Assembly: GCF_001861355.1 (NCBI RefSeq)
Contig: NZ_MASN01000017.1
Location: 62,001 to 126,000, forward strand
Origin: Natrialba sp. SSL1
Lineage (GTDB): Archaea; Halobacteriota; Halobacteria; Halobacteriales; Natrialbaceae
Direction of reading: 5' to 3'
DNA length: 64,000 nucleotides
The notes under the pieces are model-generated. The model ran no database searches. It saw only the letters and a program-made list of their open reading frames with translations, and was not told the origin of the DNA. Both the position numbers and the translations under genes were made by a program. Shown in pieces: positions 9,382-19,024 of the stretch (the stretch's first letter is position 1; each line of letters begins with the position of its first letter).

Positions 9382-10281
9382 ATGCAATTCGTCGAAGAGA
9401 TCGTCGTCGACGAGTTCCTGCCGACGATCCGGTCACTGTTGGCAGGCGAACTCCGCGAGCGCGGCCTCACCCAGAGCGACGTCGCAGATGTCCTCGGAAT
9501 CAGCCAAAGCGCCGTCTCGAAGTACGCCCACGGCGATGTCACGATCAACGAACGCATCGCCGACGACGAGCGCGTCAGCGCCACCATCGAAGAACTCGCT
9601 GATGGCCTCTCGACCGGCGATGTGACGCCTGTCCAGGCGCTCATCGAACTCGAGGTCCTCGTGCGCGAACTCGAGACGGGCGGCGATCTGCTCGCCCAAC
9701 TCCACGAGGAGGCGGTGCCCGAACTCGCGGACCACGGCGCGAGTTTCCGGGTGCACGACCCCGAGAGCGACCTGCGGACCAGCGAACGCGTCGTCTCGTC
9801 GCTGCGCCGCGGGTTGCGCATCCTCGAGAACGCGAGCGGTTTCGCGAACCTCATTCCAGCGGTCGGATCGAACCTCGTCGCCTGCACGCCGGATGCGGAA
9901 GGTATCGACGACGTGGCCGGCGTCCCCGGCCGCATCTTCGACGTCAAGGGTCGAACGACGGTCCCCGCTGCTCCCGAGTTCGGTGTCTCCGAACACGTCG
10001 CGACCGTGTTGCTCGCCGCACGTCGCCACGGCGCGGACGCCTCGGCGGCGATCAACATCGCCTACGATGACGACCTGCTCGCCGATCTCACCGAGCGCGG
10101 CCACGTTGCCGCCGAGTTCGACGAAGTCGACGACATCGCCTCGAGCGTTGGCGCGGCGATCGACGACGAACCCGAAGCAACCGTGCTGTACCAGACCGGC
10201 GGCACCGGTATCGAACCGCTGATTTACGTCCTCGGTGCCGATGCAGAATCCGTCGCAGACGACGTGCGGTCGTTGCTCTAG
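9382..10281 (+). CDS. thiR: ThiR thiamine regulator (HTH + ThiN-like domain)
   Basis: A 299-residue fusion. Residues about 20-50 form a Cro/XRE helix-turn-helix (GLTQSDVADVLGISQSAVSKYAHG). Residues about 125-299 form a ThiN-like domain (SFANLIPAVGSNLV-like block, VPGRIFDVKGRTTVPA, then FGVSEHVATVLLAARRHG and TGGTGIEPLIYVLG). In archaea such HTH-ThiN proteins are thiamine-biosynthesis repressors that sense thiamine phosphate through an inactive ThiN domain. The thi4 gene lies about 4 kb downstream, consistent with a local thiamine theme. No operator could be identified by eye. Confidence 0.9.
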   Translation: MQFVEEIVVDEFLPTIRSLLAGELRERGLTQSDVADVLGISQSAVSKYAHGDVTINERIADDERVSATIEELADGLSTGDVTPVQALIELEVLVRELETGGDLLAQLHEEAVPELADHGASFRVHDPESDLRTSERVVSSLRRGLRILENASGFANLIPAVGSNLVACTPDAEGIDDVAGVPGRIFDVKGRTTVPAAPEFGVSEHVATVLLAARRHGADASAAINIAYDDDLLADLTERGHVAAEFDEVDDIASSVGAAIDDEPEATVLYQTGGTGIEPLIYVLGADAESVADDVRSLL

Positions 10282-10364
10282 CGTTCGCGGTTTCGCAGAG
10301 CCACGGTAGCAGACGACGATTTATCTGTCCGGTCGTGGAACCCCGTGAGCAGAGCACCGATAGC

Positions 10365-11261
10365 ATGTCGATGGGTTCTGATTCCGATTCTAATACTGGT
10401 TCTGACTCCGACCCCGGCTCCGACGCCACCTCGGACTCCGACTCCGCATCCACATCCCAGTCCAGACCCGGACTCGAGTCCGAGTCCGCACAGGAGTTCT
10501 ACGGCCGCTGGGCGCGACTGTACGACCTGATCGCCCGCGGAACACCTGGCATCGCACGCCTCAGACGACGAGCAGCCGCCGCCTGCCGACTCGAGCGCGG
10601 CGATACCGTCGTCGAAATGGGCTGTGGAACCGGGGCGAACCTGCCGTACCTCCGAGAGCAGGTCGGCCCCGAGGGAACCGTCATCGGGGTCGACTTCACG
10701 CGGCCGGTACTCGAGCGGGCGCGTGCGATGGTCGCCGACCGCGGGTACGAAAACGTTCACGTCGTCCGTGGCGATGCGACAGAGCCGCCGTTCGCGGCCG
10801 CCGCTGATGTTGAGGTGGGTTCCAGTATTAGTGCCGGTTCCGGTACCGATACCAATACTGATACCGGCCCCAGTGGCGACGAAAACGGCGATGGGACCGA
10901 CATCGACGCGCTCCTCGCGACCTTCGTCGTTGGGATGCTCGACGATCCTGTCGGCGCGGTCGACGACTGGTGTGACCTCGTCGGTCCCGGCGGCCACGTC
11001 GTTCTCGCGAACGCCGCTCGCTGCGACGACGATCGCTGGTACTCGCTCCCGGTCAACGCCGTCTTCCGTGCGATCGTCGTCCTCTCGACGCCACCGACGA
11101 CCAAGCTGCGCTACGAAAGTGAACCGCACCTGCGACTCGACGACCGAATCGACGCGGCACACACCCGACTCAGAGAGAACTCGCAGGCCGTTGCCGACGA
11201 GACGCACGTCTTCGGCGTGGTCCGACTGACTGGCGGTGAACTTCCAACCGACACAAAATAG
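10365..11261 (+). CDS. Class I SAM-dependent methyltransferase with low-complexity insert
   Basis: About 298 residues. The glycine-rich SAM loop is VVEMGCGTGANLPYL, followed by the acidic strand VIGVDFTRP. A putative TATA (gatttatc, 10318-10325) lies too close to the GTG at 10335 for that start to be used, so the ATG at 10365 is preferred. The first ~40 residues are an almost pure Asp/Ser repeat. A second Ser/Thr/Asp/Gly-rich stretch interrupts the domain between the strand GDATEPPF and the strand LLATFVVGML, where other family members have a short loop. The substrate is unknown. It is probably functional, since all core Rossmann motifs remain. Confidence 0.85.
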   Translation: MSMGSDSDSNTGSDSDPGSDATSDSDSASTSQSRPGLESESAQEFYGRWARLYDLIARGTPGIARLRRRAAAACRLERGDTVVEMGCGTGANLPYLREQVGPEGTVIGVDFTRPVLERARAMVADRGYENVHVVRGDATEPPFAAAADVEVGSSISAGSGTDTNTDTGPSGDENGDGTDIDALLATFVVGMLDDPVGAVDDWCDLVGPGGHVVLANAARCDDDRWYSLPVNAVFRAIVVLSTPPTTKLRYESEPHLRLDDRIDAAHTRLRENSQAVADETHVFGVVRLTGGELPTDTK

Positions 11262-11320
11262 CTGCGTTCACGAGTTCGGCGGCGACTATCGTGGCTCTCG
11301 CCTCGTGCTCGTTCCTCTCG

Positions 11321-11731
11321 CTACGCCGGCACGCCGAGCCCCTCGAACTCCCGTACCTGCTCGCGAATCGCGTCCGGAATCGGCGCTGGGCGACCGGTCT
11401 CCGGATCGATCTGGACCATCGTCGTCTCCGCCGTCGTCGCCACCTCCTCACCCGTCCGGATTTCGTACGCCATCGTACAACTGCTTTCACCGAGATCGGT
11501 CACCTCGAGTGCGACGACTGGCTCGTCGTCGATCGTGATCGGCCGCTTGTAGGTGAGTTCGAGATTTGCGATAACGAAGGAGACCTCGTCCTGGGGAATG
11601 TCGAGCACCGTCTCCAGGTATTCCGTTCGCGCCGTCTCGATGTAGGTCGCGTGCACCGCATTGTTCACGTGATCGAGCGGGTCGAGATCGCGAAATCGCA
11701 CGGGTACCTCGGTCGTAAACTTCTCACTCAT
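11321..11731 (-). CDS. Acyl-CoA thioesterase, hot-dog fold (4HBT/YbgC type)
   Basis: A 136-residue single hot-dog domain. The family signature VRFRDLDPLDHVNNAVHATYIETAR contains the catalytic Asp of the D..DH.NNA pattern near residue 19. YKRPITIDDEPVVALEVTDLG and the strand CTMAYEIRTG follow. Such enzymes hydrolyse acyl-CoA thioesters; the natural substrate is unknown. The start at 11731 gives MSEKFTTEVPVRF, the expected short N-terminus. It converges with the methyltransferase gene. Confidence 0.92.
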   Translation of the reverse strand: MSEKFTTEVPVRFRDLDPLDHVNNAVHATYIETARTEYLETVLDIPQDEVSFVIANLELTYKRPITIDDEPVVALEVTDLGESSCTMAYEIRTGEEVATTAETTMVQIDPETGRPAPIPDAIREQVREFEGLGVPA

Positions 11732-11819
11732 TGTGTGTTTGAAGGAGTGCCCGACAAAAGTACACGTCGATTCCGGCGATGACTGTCGCCCGTTCGCATG
11801 TCCCGTCAGTGCCAGACGG

Positions 11820-12605
11820 TCAGTGAGACGCTGCCGCGTCGTACAATGGTGCGTGTTGTTCACAAAACGCCGGTTCCCTGAGCTGGGCCTCAACCAGATC
11901 CTCGTGATAGTGAGCGTTGAAGAGCCGACACCCCTCCCGATCGCAGAAGGCGTCCCCGGTCTGCAAGTAGTGCACCGCCTGCAACACGTACCCCTTCAGC
12001 GCGTCCGTCGTCCGTGGATCGTCCTCGATCAGAAAGTCGCCCTCAACCTGGTTCTCGAGTACCTCCCGCGGCGGCGAGTCTCCCGACAGGAGCGCATGCC
12101 GTTGCTTCTCCTTGTAGTACGCCTCCGGCTTCGCCGGCGCTTCGTAGAGCCCCGGCACCGACACGAGCGCGGGCTGGCCGAGAACGTTCACGCGCTTGTG
12201 CCACCGGCCGTCGTGCTCACCCCAGGTCCCGAGAACGCGGTCGAGCACCGGCACGTGAAGCGTCTCGAGGTCGCGTTCGGCCGGCGGAAGCGCACCATTC
12301 AGCGCCCGCTGGACGCCCACCCCGTCGTAGAGCACCCCGCCCGCGCGCTCGGGGGACTCGAGTGCCCGCTCCTCGTAGCGAATCGTACCGAGCATCGTAT
12401 TGCCCGTGTCTCGGTCGTAGGGTGATTTCACGCGCGCCGCGGCGAACTGTTCGGCGAGGTCATTGTCGTCGCCGCTGTGGTGTACATCGAGGAATCGGTC
12501 CCGGACTGTGACCGCTGCGTCGACGCGAGGAGCGAGCCAGTCGCCGATGGCGTCGACGTCGGCGACGGTCGTCGGCGCGCGGTAGAGAACGATCTGATCG
12601 ACCAT
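11820..12605 (-). CDS. Haloarchaeal conserved protein, possible DUF6775 putative metallopeptidase
   Basis: A 261-residue protein opening MVDQIVLYRAP. The C-terminal third holds a metal-site-like array FCDREGCRLFNAHYHEDLV, then AQLREPAFCEQH, with three Cys and several His. A haloarchaeal family annotated as putative metallopeptidase (DUF6775) shares this kind of ending, but I recall that from memory only. The middle contains MLGTIRYEERAL and VLGTWGEHDGRWHKRVNVLG. There is no signal peptide, so it is probably cytoplasmic. A function other than metal binding is not proposed. Confidence 0.65.
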   Translation of the reverse strand: MVDQIVLYRAPTTVADVDAIGDWLAPRVDAAVTVRDRFLDVHHSGDDNDLAEQFAAARVKSPYDRDTGNTMLGTIRYEERALESPERAGGVLYDGVGVQRALNGALPPAERDLETLHVPVLDRVLGTWGEHDGRWHKRVNVLGQPALVSVPGLYEAPAKPEAYYKEKQRHALLSGDSPPREVLENQVEGDFLIEDDPRTTDALKGYVLQAVHYLQTGDAFCDREGCRLFNAHYHEDLVEAQLREPAFCEQHAPLYDAAASH

Positions 12606-12702
12606 ATATTCACTAGTTGTACCACACCGTGAATCAGTTACGGTCGCCGCGCTGACCGAGATCCGTACGTTTATTCTGCCTCGCAGTCACAGTTCAGATG
12701 AC

Positions 12703-13014
12703 ATGTTCCCACCGCCCGTCTCGCGCGAGTCGGTGGTTCCCGACGGCGCGAACCCTCTCACCCGCGCGTATCAGGACGTTATCGTCTACGAGAGCGCCGA
12801 TCCGGACGACGTGCTCTACGAGGGCCCGATCGTCGTCCACGCGAACGGCTGGCTCGAACTCGAGGGCGACCGACTGCTCTCACCGAGTGCGGTCCACCAC
12901 ATCGATATCTACGACGACGAGCCCGATCCCGCGGCTCGCACGGACGAGCGGACTGACCGAGAGGACGGCGGCACTGGCAACGGTGCCGATGGAACCGACG
13001 AGTACGGCTTCTAA
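12703..13014 (+). CDS. Small conserved haloarchaeal protein
   Basis: A 103-residue protein with a compact first part (residues 1-72) ending in GWLELEGDRLLSPSAVHHID, then an Asp/Gly/Arg-rich tail. The aromatic/hydrophobic spacing (VIVYESADP, VLYEGPIVV) predicts a small beta-sheet domain. A T-rich promoter-like element (acgtttattctg, about 12666-12677) lies about 30 nt before the ATG, suggesting a leaderless transcript. No homology-based function is recognised. Confidence 0.7.
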   Translation: MFPPPVSRESVVPDGANPLTRAYQDVIVYESADPDDVLYEGPIVVHANGWLELEGDRLLSPSAVHHIDIYDDEPDPAARTDERTDREDGGTGNGADGTDEYGF

Positions 13015-13040
13015 CGCGTCCCCCACTCACCGTCCACCCG

Positions 13041-13931
13041 CTACCCGTCGACGAACGACGGCCCATCCGCCGGTTCGTCTTCAGCATCTCGCCAGGAGTG
13101 AGCAGGCTCCCACCCCAACTCTGCTCGCGCCTTCGCCGTCGAGAACGCAGACTCGTCGCCCTCGAGTGCACACTCTTCAGGCAGGTCGCCGAAGACAGCC
13201 TCGATCGTCTCAGCAGTGGGCCGATCCAGAAAGTTCTCCGCGGCGACGGCGAGGTACGTTTCGTGGCCAGCGTGTGCGTTCTCGAGCGCTGCGTCCACGA
13301 TCGAGACCACGTCGCGCACGTCGACGTAGGTCCAGAAGTTGCCGTTCGGCTCGGCGGTTTCGGGGTCAAACTGATCGCGCGCGGCCGCCATTTGCTGCTC
13401 TCCCGGGAAGGTAACCCAGGACGGCCGGATCGATGTCACCGAGACGCCGTGCTTGCGCGCGGTCATGGCTGCGATATCCTCGCCGACGAGCTTCGAGGTC
13501 GCGTAGGGGTCCTCGGGCCGACGCGGATGGGACTCGTCGATCGGGAAGTACTCGGGTAGCCACGGTTCCGCCGCGAATACGGACCCGTAGATGCTCTCAC
13601 TCGACGCCCAGACTACGTTCGCACCCGCCTGGCCGGCCGCCTCGAGGACGTGGTACGTGCTCGTGACGTTCGTCAGGAACGTCTTCGCGTCGGGTTCGAT
13701 GCCCACGCGCGGAATCGCCGCGAAGTGGACCACGGCGTCCGGGTCGAACGACAGCATTGCATCCCACGCCTGTCCCTGATCGGTGAGGTCAGCAGCCAGG
13801 AACGTGACGTTCTCGCGCTCTCTGGGTGGTCGGTCGAGATCGAGGCCGAGTACCTCGTGGCCTGCAGCCGCGAAATGGTCCACGAGCCAGCTTCCGACAC
13901 CGCCGGTCGCACCGGTGACGACAATCTTCAT
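13041..13931 (-). CDS. NAD-dependent epimerase/dehydratase (extended SDR)
   Basis: A 296-residue extended short-chain dehydrogenase. The NAD-binding motif is VTGATGGVGSWLVDHF (residues 5-20), with the acidic residue LDLDR that favours NAD. The active site is Ser in SSESIYG and YATSK (Y-x-x-x-K, about residue 143). VHFAAIPRVG is the conserved strand-4 motif. Such proteins act on nucleotide sugars or related carbonyls; the exact substrate cannot be read. It converges with the small protein gene at 12703, 26 nt apart. Confidence 0.9.
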   Translation of the reverse strand: MKIVVTGATGGVGSWLVDHFAAAGHEVLGLDLDRPPRERENVTFLAADLTDQGQAWDAMLSFDPDAVVHFAAIPRVGIEPDAKTFLTNVTSTYHVLEAAGQAGANVVWASSESIYGSVFAAEPWLPEYFPIDESHPRRPEDPYATSKLVGEDIAAMTARKHGVSVTSIRPSWVTFPGEQQMAAARDQFDPETAEPNGNFWTYVDVRDVVSIVDAALENAHAGHETYLAVAAENFLDRPTAETIEAVFGDLPEECALEGDESAFSTAKARAELGWEPAHSWRDAEDEPADGPSFVDG

Positions 13932-14135
13932 ATCGCCACCCTGTGGCCCACTGTCGAAAACAGTGTGGATTCGTCGCCCCTGTCGCTGTTTTTCGGTGTG
14001 GCTGCCTCGTGAAGATAGCTGTGGCTATGTTGATCGAGGGGATCTGTACTGTACGTGGTTGTACTCGAGTCTACCCGAACTCACATCGCGGTGCGTTGCT
14101 CGTCGAGCGAACAGCGCAACTGCTCCGGGGATTCG
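13932..14135. other. Intergenic region without recognisable gene
   Basis: Between the epimerase start and the thi4 terminator no frame has convincing coding character. GC is locally lower than in the genes. The start-proximal end should hold the epimerase promoter on the minus strand, but no clear TATA box was singled out. Confidence 0.4.
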
Positions 14136-14158
14136 AAAACCGGTGGGCGAACCCACCG
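14136..14158 (-). terminator. Hairpin plus T-run after thi4
   Basis: On the minus strand CGGTGGG-TTCG-CCCACCG (14158 to 14141) forms a perfect 7-bp stem with a TTCG loop and is directly followed by GTTTT (14140-14136), about 40 nt after the thi4 stop. It looks like a bacterial intrinsic terminator and probably ends or protects the thi4 transcript. Confidence 0.6.
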
Positions 14159-14197
14159 AAAACATGACTGAGAGTGACTGTGGGGAGTCGCTAGTGA

Positions 14198-15127
14198 TTA
14201 GTCGTCTGCTGGCGCAGCGCGGGAGGTGAGCTCGACAGGCTCGGCGTCGACCTCGAGTTCGTCGAGTGCGACCTGGGCGGCGCGCTTGCCGGAGACGAGC
14301 ATAGCACCGAACGTCGGGCCCATGCGCGGGAGGCCGTAGGTCGTCGCGGTCGCCATACCGGTCGCGATCAGGCCCTCGTGGACGAGGCCGGTGTGCTCGA
14401 CGATGGCATCTTCGGACTTACCGACCCACATCGAGTCGTGGCCGGGCGAGTCGTGGCCGGGAGCGCCGTACGTGTCGTCGTCGGTCTGGTCCATGACCGT
14501 TCCGCGCTCTCTGGCGTCCTGAACGCCAGGTGCGTCGAGGACGCCGCGCTCGTCGAGTTTGGTGATCGCCATCGCGTCGTGACCCGTCGCGTCGATGACG
14601 AGGTCCGCTTCGACCGCGATCGGGTCGACACAGGTGATCTCACGCGGGAGCGCGTGGACCGGCGTCCAGTTCATGACGATCCCGGAGACCTTGTGGTCTT
14701 CGCGGATGACGATGTCCGTGAACTCGGTCATGTTCTGCATCTTCGCGCCGGCGTCGCAGGCGGCCTTGATGAGCCCGGAACACGCCTCGGGTCCGTTCGC
14801 GACGTAGAGTCCCTCGCTGTCCTGGGACTGCTTGTAGGAGACCTCGAGTTCGTCGAGAACCTGCTGTGCAGGGTCCCGGACGGTGATCTTGTTCATCAGG
14901 AAGCCACCGAGCCAGAAGCCGCCGCCGAGGTAGTTGTTCTTCTCGACGACCATCGTCTTGACGCCGCGCTCGGAGAGTTCCTTCGCGGCGGTCAGTCCCG
15001 AGGGACCGCCCCCGACGATGATGACATCTGAATCCGAGAAGTCCATGAACTCCTCGGTCCACTCCTGCCCGATTGCGCGTGTTACGTCCGCTTCGCCGAC
15101 GTCGCTGAACTGTTCGAACTCGCTCAT
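14198..15127 (-). CDS. thi4: Thiamine thiazole synthase Thi4 (Cys, sulfide-donor type)
   Basis: A 309-residue enzyme of the Thi4 family, making the thiazole moiety of thiamine from NAD and glycine. The dinucleotide-binding motif [17 protein letters not shown] is at residues about 35-51, with [12 protein letters not shown] and ATGHDAMA. The residue homologous to the sacrificial cysteine of yeast and Haloferax Thi4 is present in [14 protein letters not shown], so a Cys-dependent type is expected rather than the His-containing sulfide-dependent type of methanogens. The start at 15127 gives [10 protein letters not shown]. Regulation by the ThiR encoded at 9382 is likely but not visible as a site. 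Confidence 0.95.
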
Positions 15128-15251
15128 ACAACTAGGTGGTATCATCCGGTAGTGAAAAGTCTGTCGCGATGATTTGCAAGCAGTCACCCACCGCGAGCGA
15201 AACGGACGGGCGCTGGAGGCAACCCTAACGGAGAAAATAAAATGGTTCCCA

Positions 15252-15333
15252 ATAGTAACAACTGAAACTGTTCACACACCAATCGCGCAGCCTCCGTTCG
15301 ATTGGGTGTGCACTGACTTTCAGTGGCTACTAT
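15252..15333 (+). repeat. Palindromic MITE-like repeat, copy 1
   Basis: An ~82 bp imperfect inverted repeat. The left arm starts ATAGTAACAACTGAAACTG and ends CACACACCAATCG. The reverse complement of the right arm starts ATAGTAGCCACTGAAAGTC and ends CACACCCAATCG, with about 13 nt between arms. Its right arm shares a 26-bp exact match (15305-15330) with copy 2 near 48.1 kb, and a reverse-oriented relative lies at 18222-18292. The right end creates a TATA-like ACTATAG 66 nt before the citrate-synthase/winged-helix gene. No transposase is encoded, so it is MITE-like. Confidence 0.8.
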
Positions 15334-15400
15334 AGTTGCTGTACCGCGAGAACGTCCCCCGTAACACTGTTGATAGCATGCGTACAATAGTCGAGACACT

Positions 15401-16846
15401 GTGACCCCTTCCGTCTTCGATCCTGGCCTCTCTTTCACCGCAGTCGCTGAAACTGGCCTCAGCGAAATCGATGGCGACACCGGCGAATTTCGAATTCAGG
15501 GGTTCGAAATCGAAGACCTCGCCGAGAACGCGGCGTACGAAGAGGTTGTGTGGCTGTTGTTTAACGGGCGACTCCCAACCGATAACGAGTTAGCCACGTT
15601 CACGAACGAGCTCTCGTCCGCTCGAAGCCTCACAGATACCATCTACAGTCTGATTCAGGAGGGTGCAGAAGAAGGTGTACCGGCAATAGACACACTCCGT
15701 ATGGGGTTGGGAGCGGGAAGCCTCTCTTTCGACAGCGAGGATACCCTCATGGCTACCCGACGCGTCGTCGCAATCTGTCCACCGATCATCGCAGCTTACT
15801 GGCGATATCGCCAAGGGAGAGAGCCCATCCAGCCACGTGACGACCTAACTCACACGGAGAATTTCTTGTACATGCTCTCTGGGGTAGAGCCGGCCGCATC
15901 CACTGTGAAGGGGTTAGAGACGTATCTAATTACGATCATTGAGCACGGTCTCAATGCGTCAACGTTTGCCGCTCGAATTATTGGCTCAACTGGGTCTGAT
16001 CCCTTTTCGGCGGCCACCGGTGCCGTCGGGGCACTCAAGGGACCACGGCACGGTGGCGCACTCAAACGAGTTAGTGAGATGCTCACTGGCCTTGACAACG
16101 GGACGGACCCAGCAACGTTTGTTCAAGAGCGACTGGAAGGCGACGGGTCGTTTCCCGGATTTGGTCATATCGTCTATAACACCCGAGACCCGCGAGCGGA
16201 AATCGTCGAACAAGCTGCAGAACGCGTGGGCGGGAAACAAGATTCGACACCGTTTCTTCGGAACGCACGCCAGCTCGAGGCTGTGGCTGCGGAGTATTTC
16301 ACCGAACAGTATCCCAAGCGACAACTGCACGTGACTGTCGATTACTACGCAGCAGTCCTCCTTTCCGAACTCGACATTCCACCAGAACTGTTCACCGCGA
16401 TCTTTGCGATCGGACGTTCCGCCGGTTGGATGGCCCACTACCTTGAACAGCTCGAAAGCGAGACACTCCTTCGTCCTCGAACACGATATGTCGGTCCAGA
16501 CGAACGGTCGTGGATTTCGCGCTCGGACAGATTCGTCGCTGGCGATTCGAGCCCTCCTTCATCCACCGACCTGAAGGGAATCTCCTCAATCCTTGGCACG
16601 CTTTCAGAACCCGCTCGGTTGGAAATCTCATTGATTCTGTATGAGTCGGCGGAACCACTTTCGTACTCGTCGATTCGAGCACAGAGTTCGATTGAGGATA
16701 AGGGGCGGTTCAACTATCATCTCCGGAAACTTCGTCGCATCTACATCACGAATACAGCGGCTGGCTATTCGTTGACTGACACGGGTCGGAAAGTCGTCGA
16801 GATGCTCGTCGATGACGAGCAATTGCTCGCACAAACAATCGAATAG
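15401..16846 (+). CDS. Citrate synthase fused to C-terminal winged-helix DNA-binding domain
   Basis: A 481-residue protein with a GTG start. Residues 1 to about 375 are a small-type citrate synthase: EHGLNAST, GPRHGGA (His equivalent to pig H274), PGFGHIVYNTRDPRAE (H320 equivalent), TVDYYAAVLL (D375 equivalent), and RSAGWMAHYLEQ with LLRPRTRY for citrate-binding Arg. Residues about 395-480 are a winged helix of the kind common in haloarchaeal regulators: ISSILGTLSEPARLEISLIL, then KGRFNYHLRKLRRIYI and GYSLTDTGRKVVEMLV. The catalytic set looks complete, but conserved neighbours differ (GGA-L instead of GGA-N; GH-I-VY instead of GH-R-VY; T before VD instead of N). I infer a metabolite-sensing regulator or bifunctional enzyme-regulator. 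Lower GC than neighbours and flanking repeats suggest acquisition. Confidence 0.88.
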   Translation: MTPSVFDPGLSFTAVAETGLSEIDGDTGEFRIQGFEIEDLAENAAYEEVVWLLFNGRLPTDNELATFTNELSSARSLTDTIYSLIQEGAEEGVPAIDTLRMGLGAGSLSFDSEDTLMATRRVVAICPPIIAAYWRYRQGREPIQPRDDLTHTENFLYMLSGVEPAASTVKGLETYLITIIEHGLNASTFAARIIGSTGSDPFSAATGAVGALKGPRHGGALKRVSEMLTGLDNGTDPATFVQERLEGDGSFPGFGHIVYNTRDPRAEIVEQAAERVGGKQDSTPFLRNARQLEAVAAEYFTEQYPKRQLHVTVDYYAAVLLSELDIPPELFTAIFAIGRSAGWMAHYLEQLESETLLRPRTRYVGPDERSWISRSDRFVAGDSSPPSSTDLKGISSILGTLSEPARLEISLILYESAEPLSYSSIRAQSSIEDKGRFNYHLRKLRRIYITNTAAGYSLTDTGRKVVEMLVDDEQLLAQTIE

Positions 16847-16856
16847 ACGGATCACG

Positions 16857-17023
16857 ATAGGGAAGCAGATTTACCCCGTCGTATTGTGTCTCTTTCATAG
16901 ATCGAGCACTCCTTGAAAACCTCTAATGGAGTGTACCCACTCGTTTCTGAACGAATAGCCACACACGAGAACAATCCATTCACTGCCTGATCTGTTCCTG
17001 TGGTCGATGATGAGTTGTGGTCG
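16857..17023. other. Spacer between the two citrate synthase genes
   Basis: The whole gap (16847-17085) is about 240 nt and AT-richer than the genome. Frames here are short or of improbable composition, so no gene is called. The gap is too long for simple translational coupling; a separate promoter for the second gene is likely. A dyad at 17024-17043 is listed separately. Confidence 0.4.
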
Positions 17024-17043
17024 TGGAGAAATGGTCTTCTCCA
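17024..17043. promoter_or_regulatory. Perfect dyad TGGAGAA-N6-TTCTCCA, candidate operator
   Basis: A perfect 7-bp inverted repeat with 6-nt spacer, 43 nt before the ATG of the second citrate synthase. Size and symmetry suit a dimeric winged-helix regulator, and the adjacent gene encodes one. The assignment as its operator is inference. On RNA it could alternatively form a short hairpin. Confidence 0.4.
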
Positions 17044-17085
17044 AAGCCCTATCCCCAATTCTTCCGTCTCTCTATATGAACTAAC

Positions 17086-18219
17086 ATGGGCAACCAAGAG
17101 CTCCACCGAGGGTTAGAAGGTATCGCCGTCGCGGAAACACGGCTCAGCACGATCGATGGCGAGGCTGGTGAACTCAGTATCGGGGGATACCCTGTTGCAG
17201 AACTCGCCAAGAATGCAATCTACGAGGAAAGTGTATTCCTGTTGTTCAACAACCGACTTCCGACGAAATCGGAACTCGAGTCGTTCTGCACAGAACTCGC
17301 TGGCTATCGGAACATTTCCACGGAGGTCAAACAGGTGCTTCGACGAGCGGCACGAGAGAACGCGGACCCGATGGATGCGCTTCGAATGGGAGTGGCCGCA
17401 GCCAATCTCGGCTGCGACGTAACAGAATCGACGGAGCTCGCCAAGCGGCTGGTGAGCGTAATTCCAACTATCGTCACGACGTATTGGCGATATCGCTCGG
17501 GCAAAGAGCCGGTAGATCCACGCGAAGACCTCGGCCATACCGCGAACTACCTCTACATGCTGTCCGGCGAAGAGCCCGACCCCGAAGCCGTGAGAGGGCT
17601 CGAAACCTACCTCAATACGGTTGTTGACCACGGACTGAACGCATCCACCTTCGTCGCTCGGTCTATCGCGTCGTCCGATTCAGATCTCGTTTCAGCAGTA
17701 ACGGGTGCAGTAGGATCACTCAAGGGATCGCTTCACGGTGGAGCGCCTGGGCCGGTTTTGGAGATGCTCCTCACAGCAGACGACTCTGGCGACCCGGAGG
17801 GGTATGTACAGGAGAAACTCGATTCCGGTGAGCGGCTTATGGGCTTTGGACACCGAGTGTATCAGACGCGCGATCCACGTGCCGAGGTCCTCTCCCACGC
17901 CGCTGAGCGATTCTATTCTGGATCGGACGACAGAGCGTTCTTCGGATTTGTCGAAGAATTCGAAGAGACCGTGGTTAGTCGACTGGCTGATCACAGGCCT
18001 GACCGAAACCTCGACACAAACGTGGAGTTCTACACGGCTGTGCTCCTGCATGGAGTTGACATTCCACGGGAATTGTTTACGACCACCTTCGCTATGTCAC
18101 GAGTCGGTGGTTGGACAGCCCACTGCCTCGAGCAGTTAGCAGATAACAAAATAATTCGCCCCCTGTCCATCTATACTGGTGACCGTGGCCGATCGTGGAC
18201 TCCAGTCGACAGCCGCTAG
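17086..18219 (+). CDS. Citrate synthase paralogue with Asp-to-Glu change at the general base
   Basis: A 377-residue protein starting MGNQELHRGLEGIAVAETRL, the full length of an archaeal citrate/methylcitrate synthase. Motifs present: DHGLNAST, SLHGGA (catalytic His), MGFGHRVYQTRDPRAE (catalytic His), MSRVGGWTAHCLEQ and IIRPLSIYTG. The residue matching pig Asp375 is Glu (TNVEFYTA, codon GAG), and the Asn after HGGA is Pro. Asp-to-Glu at this position strongly impairs known citrate synthases, so this copy may be weak or non-catalytic. It resembles the upstream fusion closely through the synthase domain but lacks the winged helix. Heterodimerisation is plausible because the fold is an obligate dimer. 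Confidence 0.88.
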   Translation: MGNQELHRGLEGIAVAETRLSTIDGEAGELSIGGYPVAELAKNAIYEESVFLLFNNRLPTKSELESFCTELAGYRNISTEVKQVLRRAARENADPMDALRMGVAAANLGCDVTESTELAKRLVSVIPTIVTTYWRYRSGKEPVDPREDLGHTANYLYMLSGEEPDPEAVRGLETYLNTVVDHGLNASTFVARSIASSDSDLVSAVTGAVGSLKGSLHGGAPGPVLEMLLTADDSGDPEGYVQEKLDSGERLMGFGHRVYQTRDPRAEVLSHAAERFYSGSDDRAFFGFVEEFEETVVSRLADHRPDRNLDTNVEFYTAVLLHGVDIPRELFTTTFAMSRVGGWTAHCLEQLADNKIIRPLSIYTGDRGRSWTPVDSR

Positions 18220-18221
18220 CG

Positions 18222-18292
18222 ATAGTAGCCACCGCAAATCACTGCACAGCAGATCGAACGACGCCTGTGCGATCAGTGTACAATTAGCTCTA
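18222..18292 (-). repeat. Palindromic MITE-like repeat, copy 2 in inverted orientation
   Basis: Read on the minus strand, this copy ends CGGTGGCTACTAT like copy 1 (CAGTGGCTACTAT). It shares the interior pattern ACTGATCGC ... CGTTCGAT ... TGTGCA-TGA-TT, and begins TAGAGCTAA where the 48-kb copy has TAGTGCTAA. It is ~71 bp, with an 8-9 nt deletion in the outer left arm. It starts 2 nt after the stop of the second citrate synthase, so copies 1 and 2 bracket the two genes in opposite orientation. Confidence 0.7.
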
Positions 18293-18586
18293 CCCAGTTC
18301 TACAATTCCATCTCGATCGATAGGAAACGACGCGCTTCCGAAGATAGGCGATTGCTCTCGTCTCTTATGCTGCTGAAACTCAGAACCAGTGTATACTTCG
18401 AAATTCTGATCTGACGATCCCAGATTTTGTATATCAATATATAGTTCATCACATCGGCGCGACGAACCGGTGACAGAGCGGAGTGGCTTCAGACGGCAAC
18501 AGACAGACACCACCTGATGCGAAAACAACAGGGCAAAACTAGCAGACCGTCACACGAAAACTCGAGAAACCGATTGAATCCGAAGT
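18293..18586. other. AT-rich intergenic region without recognisable gene
   Basis: About 290 nt between the repeat and the halocyanin gene. It contains a strikingly AT-rich patch (about 18425-18450, tttgtatatcaatatatag) untypical of the genome. Reading frames on the minus strand have poor halophile composition (Cys/Leu/Arg-rich, not acidic) and are rejected. It may be remnant sequence of the acquired segment. Confidence 0.45.
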
Positions 18587-19024
18587 CTACTCGCGGACGA
18601 CAACTGTCCCGATCATGTTGCCATCGACGTGTGGCTCGCAAATGTAGGTGTACTCACCGGGAACCTCGAACGTGTGCTCGTACGTCTCCCGCGTGCCGAG
18701 CCGCCCACCGCGGTACTCGTGCCAGGCGTCACGAGCAGTTCGCTCGTCTTCGTAGTCGCCGGTGGCGAAGTACGCTGCGTCCTCTGGAATGCTGTTCTCG
18801 AGGGCCGTCACGGTGTGGTCTGCACCGCTCGTGTTCTTCCAGACGACCGTCTCGCCGACGGTTGTCTCGTACTCGACCGGAACGAACGCGTTGCGAGTCA
18901 TCCCGATATCGCACTCGTCGCCGCTGCACGGGGGGTCATCGAAGACGCCCATGACCGAGGTGCAACCGGCAAGGCTGGCCGAAAGGGAGGTGCCGACGGC
19001 GGCAAGGTAGACGCGCCGGTTCAT
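18587..19024 (-). CDS. Halocyanin-like blue copper lipoprotein
   Basis: A 145-residue exported cupredoxin. The N-terminus MNRRVYLAAVG leads to a lipobox LAGC (Cys21). Type-1 copper ligands are visible as His70 (GADHTVTA), Cys129 and His132 (YICEPH) and Met137 (GNM). Two extra cysteines, CSGDEC (33-38), may form a disulfide. Halocyanins carry electrons at the outer membrane face in haloarchaeal respiration. The gene stands alone, divergent from the phosphatidyltransferase gene. Confidence 0.93.
   Translation of the reverse strand: MNRRVYLAAVGTSLSASLAGCTSVMGVFDDPPCSGDECDIGMTRNAFVPVEYETTVGETVVWKNTSGADHTVTALENSIPEDAAYFATGDYEDERTARDAWHEYRGGRLGTRETYEHTFEVPGEYTYICEPHVDGNMIGTVVVRE

Follow-up and report, generated by a model that had tools for sequence, protein, structure and literature searches.

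A citrate synthase fused to a winged helix in haloarchaea, a putative one-component regulator of a neighbouring citrate synthase gene

The use of enzyme folds as the sensors of transcription factors is already known for aminotransferases. In the MocR/GabR regulators, such as GabR of Bacillus subtilis, a winged helix is combined with a sensor of aminotransferase fold (PMC6917764). PutA and BirA, like the protein described here, carry a metabolic enzyme domain together with a DNA-binding domain and, unlike it, have a demonstrated catalytic activity. For citrate synthase (CS), a search of the literature, conducted mostly outside the subscription journals, found no description of its use as a transcription-factor sensor, nor any paper on fusions of a helix-turn-helix (HTH) domain with CS or on the domain family DUF7347. 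The window analysed here, a stretch of 64,000 nucleotides from Natrialba sp. SSL1, contains such a fusion (termed FUS), followed by a stand-alone CS gene (PAR). A preliminary description of FUS had proposed that a full-length CS with its catalytic His-His-Asp was continuous in frame with a C-terminal winged helix, that this combination was not among the known trigger enzymes, and that a TCA-cycle enzyme had been turned into a sensor that acts on DNA.

The reading frame of FUS is uninterrupted over 481 codons from a GTG start (Table 1), and within it Pfam places Citrate_synt (PF00285) on residues 9-360, over the full length of the CS-fold profile (1-357 of 357; E = 2e-104; 349.7 bits against a curated cut-off of 27), and DUF7347 (PF24038) on residues 398-468 (E = 5e-17; 62.3 bits, cut-off 27.6). 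The remaining fusions that were scanned score 66-77 bits for DUF7347, and a match of FUS to HTH_20 is sub-threshold. The model for the canonical haloarchaeal CitZ (NF041301, cut-off 550 bits) is reached by neither FUS (334.7) nor PAR (371.2). The architecture first described was therefore confirmed: His217, His256 and Asp314 are present, both domains lie in a single frame, and the same arrangement is found in other archaeal genomes, with a conserved C-terminal part and neither a stop nor a frameshift separating the domains. Given the match to an HTH profile and a C-terminal part that relatives share, neither of the two objections that had been anticipated, a break between the domains or a C-terminal part resembling no HTH family and no relative, applies.

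Table 1. Features of the FUS-PAR locus, in window coordinates
Feature	Position	Strand	Basis
Conserved CCGTAACACTGTTG, about 30-45 nt before FUS (probable FUS core promoter)	15359..15372	+	conserved in 7/8 close fusion relatives, one with one mismatch
FUS, citrate synthase + winged-helix fusion, 481 aa	15401..16846	+	open frame, Pfam, conserved in 15 loci
CS domain of FUS, residues 9-360	15425..16480	+	Pfam and residue alignment
Interdomain linker of FUS, residues 378-397	16532..16591	+	sequence comparison of fusions
DUF7347 winged helix of FUS, residues 398-468	16592..16804	+	Pfam, predicted fold, weak Foldseek matches
Probable recognition helix of FUS, DKGRFNYHLRKLR, residues 433-445	16697..16735	+	DKGR + FNYHL core the same in every aligned fusion
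Palindrome site 1, AGGGAAGCAGATTTACCC, just past FUS stop	16859..16876	.	motif match with two deviations
Palindrome site 2, GGAGAAATGGTCTTCTCC, 61 nt before PAR start	17025..17042	.	perfect motif match
TATA/BRE-like element AAAGCCCTATC, directly after site 2 (presumed PAR core promoter)	17043..17053	+	conserved position
PAR, stand-alone citrate synthase, 377 aa (presumed target gene)	17086..18219	+	open frame, Pfam, tree

Within the fusions, conservation is strongest in the probable DNA-reading helix, and the string DKGRFNYHLR does not vary among the 12 fusions of the first alignment or in the 3 that were added afterwards. Pairwise dN/dS among the fusions lies between 0.03 and 0.15 in the winged helix; in the CS domain most values are about 0.15-0.22, a single close pair reaching 0.65, and PAR gives 0.12-0.22. 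FUS is under purifying selection. AlphaFold2 models of 14 sequences have a confident CS body and a C-terminal part of low confidence, and the best Foldseek matches of the predicted FUS structures are citrate synthases. When the winged helix was modelled alone (5 sequences, mean pLDDT 68), it was predicted as helices, then a two-strand wing and then another helix, with weak Foldseek matches to MarR-type winged helices; a sequence search of solved structures found no relatives of this domain. A FUS homodimer with two winged helices would suit an operator of two-fold symmetry.

The active site of FUS is partly kept and partly remodelled. The window protein retains His182, His217, His256, Arg265, Asp314, Arg339 and Arg358, all of which except Asp314 we take, by homology to CS structures, to be oxaloacetate-binding positions. 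These ligand positions are kept across the 12 fusions in the phylogenetic tree, with the exception of His182, which is Arg in one (L060), and the catalytic His217, His256 and Asp314 are intact in the window protein and in nearly all of its clade. Directly before the catalytic His217, Leu216 has become Arg in 12 of 12 tree fusions, and Arg257 has been lost from the same 12, being replaced by Ile (as in the window), Val, Ala, Ser or Pro; Asn312 is changed to Thr in nine, and two clade-B fusions have HAGD instead of HGGA. Remodelling beside the catalytic histidines suggests a loss of catalysis in FUS and does not prove it, since Arg257 is not universal among citrate synthases. Judged from the sequences, the remodelled neighbours and the retained oxaloacetate ligands would fit a dedicated sensor at least as well as a trigger enzyme.

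Four relatives with the same architecture are 86, 76, 79 and 52% identical to FUS over the whole protein, and the architecture was found in Halovivax, Halogranum, a further member of the Halobacteriales, Actinarchaeum halophilum and on a plasmid of Halomontanus. The distribution is patchy, with the fusion in 9 of 391 Halobacteria genomes (host counted) and in additional genomes, and with other members of the host's genus lacking it. Removal of duplicates left 15 distinct loci (the window, L004, L006, L058-L065, L078, L095, L096 and L100), which amount to about three lineages, so that fewer than 15 independent events are represented. In the maximum-likelihood tree built from 61 CS domains, for which the bootstrap was not fully settled, the fusions form a single clade (98/94) nested in the clade of haloarchaeal PAR proteins (100/99). 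This nesting points to an origin in which, most likely, the second haloarchaeal CS was duplicated and one copy acquired a DUF7347 winged helix. Stand-alone DUF7347 proteins are present in the host genome, where five more (L021-L025) score over the cut-off, mostly with Cys in their C-terminal parts. A second clade of fusions (L063-L065, L095 and L096) has CS domains that are 54-57% identical to PAR and 48-50% to the window fusion; in the three examined (L063-L065), Glu replaces the catalytic Asp, and two of them have HAGD for HGGA. The FUS-PAR pair lies near a site-specific integrase on the Halomontanus plasmid (L078) and on a second chromosome in Halovivax (L004), a placement that fits a mobile two-gene module.

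PAR has no winged helix and is 48% identical to the CS domain of FUS; a third CS of the host genome, of the canonical type, is encoded on another contig. PAR lies downstream of FUS in the same orientation in all 15 distinct loci. Clustering of the neighbouring genes across the fusion loci found no gene common to all except FUS and PAR, and an operon with a metabolic pathway was rejected on these grounds. PAR-type CS also occurs without the fusion, in about 60 of the 391 Halobacteria genomes. The usual motifs are retained nearly everywhere in PAR and in these PAR-only proteins, in which Glu takes the place of the catalytic Asp (NVEFYT), as it does in B. subtilis 2c6x. By eye, the PAR-only genes of L066, L068, L069 and L070 share a neighbourhood of DsbA-like, glutathione-transferase-like, AzlC-like transporter and MFS genes. 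In Haloferax mediterranei, CRISPRi knock-down of citZ and gltA (HFX_6170) led to a higher yield of PHBV (PMC8387396). This gltA is probably the PAR-type gene of plasmid pHME505, with which it is equated because that gene is the sole CS match on the plasmid, and PAR-type CS thus probably matters in metabolism.

Between FUS and PAR, two copies of an 18-bp palindrome, GGRGAA-N6-TTCYCC, are present in 15 of 15 fusion loci. The motif was defined on 12 loci, and both copies were found in each of the three loci fetched afterwards, which served as an out-of-sample test; dinucleotide shuffles gave the pair in none or almost none of 1000 per region. Site 1 starts from 11 nt before to 35 nt after the end of FUS (L058 excepted, where it is with PAR) and is one or two bases off the motif in the window and its nearest relatives. 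Site 2 starts 52-62 nt before PAR in 14 of the 15 loci, and 86 nt before it in L064, where the start of PAR is uncertain; across the fusion loci a TATA-like element follows directly on its 3' side. The two sites are 107-188 bp apart, without a fixed helical phase. In L058, a close relative from the same genus, an insertion separates PAR from the fusion by about 3.6 kb, and both palindromes stay with PAR, so that site 1 is about 3.4 kb away from the fusion; the inserted segment (9677-13096 of that locus, about 3.4 kb) has open reading frames of 453 and 359 aa. For 15 PAR genes of genomes without the fusion, no palindrome within one mismatch was found in the 250 nt upstream, and the operator-like site thus tracks the fusion (15/15 fusion loci against 0/15 PAR-only). 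The exact motif occurs once in the 4.58 Mb host genome, at PAR (site 2), and since about one exact match per genome is the estimated chance expectation, the weight is carried by the location and not by the count. With one mismatch allowed, the motif is found at 18 places genome-wide, against 7 for a reversed-pattern control.

An RNA hairpin or known RNA family was rejected as an explanation of the palindromes, as no pair in their arms had changes on both sides, covariation was equal to that of shuffles, and positions 14000-19000 gave no Rfam match. Autoregulation of FUS through the same palindrome was likewise rejected: no good copy lies upstream of FUS, and a shorter imperfect palindrome found there was judged too weak. 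The conserved CCGTAACACTGTTG, beyond which the sequence further upstream is unrelated among close relatives, is probably a core promoter of FUS that is not shared with the palindromes.

It is likely, in our judgement, that FUS is a dedicated one-component regulator that uses the CS fold as its sensor, binds the palindromes and controls PAR. The duplicated CS would retain its dimeric fold and oxaloacetate pocket and act as a metabolite sensor, the two 18-bp palindromes would be bound by the winged helices (DUF7347) at the C termini of the dimer, and this binding would set the expression of PAR, the normal-looking CS next door. A ligand would close the CS domains of FUS, as in ordinary citrate synthases, and so move or free the winged helices; the position of site 2, abutting the BRE/TATA from upstream, would fit either activation by recruitment or repression by blocking of TFB. 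Oxaloacetate is favoured as the ligand, tentatively, because its pocket is kept and citrate synthase closes on oxaloacetate, with an acyl-CoA, citrate or a related acid as the alternatives. The proposal that a CS had become a sensor acting on DNA is thus supported independently by a palindrome pair that is specific to the fusion and lies at a neighbouring CS gene; a dedicated sensor would fit the remodelled active site at least as well as a trigger enzyme, and the choice of ligand stays conjectural.

The same data allow other readings. FUS might still catalyse the synthesis of citrate or 2-methylcitrate and at the same time bind DNA and regulate the locus, and the purifying selection on its CS domain, the retained oxaloacetate ligands and the catalytic trio speak for this, the trio being intact in the window's clade, so that activity is conceivable. 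Such a trigger enzyme is nonetheless rather unlikely, given the changes at residues 216 and 257 in every tree fusion and at 312 in nine, the loss of His182 in L060 and of HGGA in two clade-B members, the normal CS gene that always adjoins FUS, and the fact that both candidate operators belong to PAR and not to FUS. The constant company of the two genes would also be expected if FUS formed heterodimers with PAR as a regulatory subunit, its winged helix being mainly a protein-protein or targeting module or bringing PAR to DNA. Each CS active site is completed by an Arg of the other subunit, and this residue (358) is kept in FUS; about 60 of the 391 genomes nevertheless have PAR-type CS and no FUS, the operator-like palindromes track FUS, and the most conserved part is the probable DNA-reading helix, all of which makes a regulatory subunit an unlikely alternative.

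The palindromes themselves might be RNA hairpins, acting in termination or mRNA processing, or the sites of an unrelated regulator, with FUS not acting there. GGAGAA-N6-TTCTCC could indeed fold into a 6-bp hairpin, and site 1 comes after the FUS stop codon. This is improbable in view of the missing two-sided changes and shuffle-like covariation, the L058 sites that remain upstream of PAR with FUS about 3.4 kb away, and the absence of the palindromes at PAR genes without FUS. The co-occurrence of palindromes and fusion is strict; as about three lineages account for the 15 loci, another co-occurring factor could bind the sites. That the fusion is an artefact of assembly or annotation, with two genes wrongly joined, is refuted by the continuous frame repeated in many independent assemblies and is scarcely credible. 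A dedicated regulator of PAR is thus the reading that we prefer.

The view that HTH and CS had not been seen in combination did not stand, and the combination is not unique, because fusions of the two exist in proteobacteria. There, an HTH_17/MerR-type HTH lies N-terminal to a divergent CS in Niveispirillum (L013/L019), on pAt of Agrobacterium fabrum C58 (L080) and on a plasmid of Burkholderia cepacia (L086). These proteins are machine-annotated merely as citrate synthase or citrate synthase family. A query of this kind matched over at least 80% of its length in 83 plasmid records, not all of which need carry the HTH, and one protein (L084) is grouped with the bacterial fusions by the tree and has no HTH match. 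The bacterial proteins form a separate clade (100/100), and common descent with the haloarchaeal fusions was rejected (AU p = 0.0012), a rejection that is good but not final because long branches are in play. They resemble FUS in the combination of an HTH with a divergent CS, in having a normal CS gene as neighbour (L013 and L080; L084 has the same gene pair), in Leu216Arg (4/8) and in replacement of Arg257 (5/8), and differ from it in their N-terminal HTH of another family and their separate clade. No comparable palindrome pair was found at the three bacterial junctions examined, where one inverted repeat is present, in L013 only. An independent bacterial lineage suggests repeated evolution, and we regard as evenly balanced the broader proposal of at least two conversions of CS, one among haloarchaea and one among proteobacteria, each giving a dedicated transcription-factor sensor that would respond to the oxaloacetate/acyl-CoA state and regulate the sensor's own enzymatic paralogue.

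The FUS locus forms a complete unit of a putative regulator, two candidate operators and a presumed target gene. It is relevant to the sensing of TCA-cycle input by haloarchaea, CS being the entry enzyme of that cycle, and to the conversion of an enzyme into a regulator after duplication; should the ligand be confirmed, the locus could also provide a genetically encoded sensor of oxaloacetate or acyl-CoA. Among known proteins, the second haloarchaeal CS (the PAR type, e.g., that of H. mediterranei pHME505) is the parent family of the FUS CS domain, keeps the NVEFYT and PLHGGA motifs in nearly all members and, unlike the FUS loci, has neither a winged helix nor upstream palindromes. The stand-alone DUF7347 regulators of the host share the winged-helix family of FUS and have an F-x-YHL core related to its own; they differ from FUS in lacking a CS domain. 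Like MocR/GabR, FUS joins a DNA-binding domain to a complete metabolic-enzyme fold and is proposed to follow the same logic of a sensor controlling metabolic genes. FUS shows just CS and DUF7347/HTH domains, without an aminotransferase fold, and so lies outside that family; it is archaeal, with a CS fold in place of a PLP aminotransferase and a C-terminal winged helix of the DUF7347 type, and the gene that it presumably controls encodes a paralogue of the sensor. We rate FUS as a putative enzyme-fold one-component regulator that is new in fold, domain order and target.
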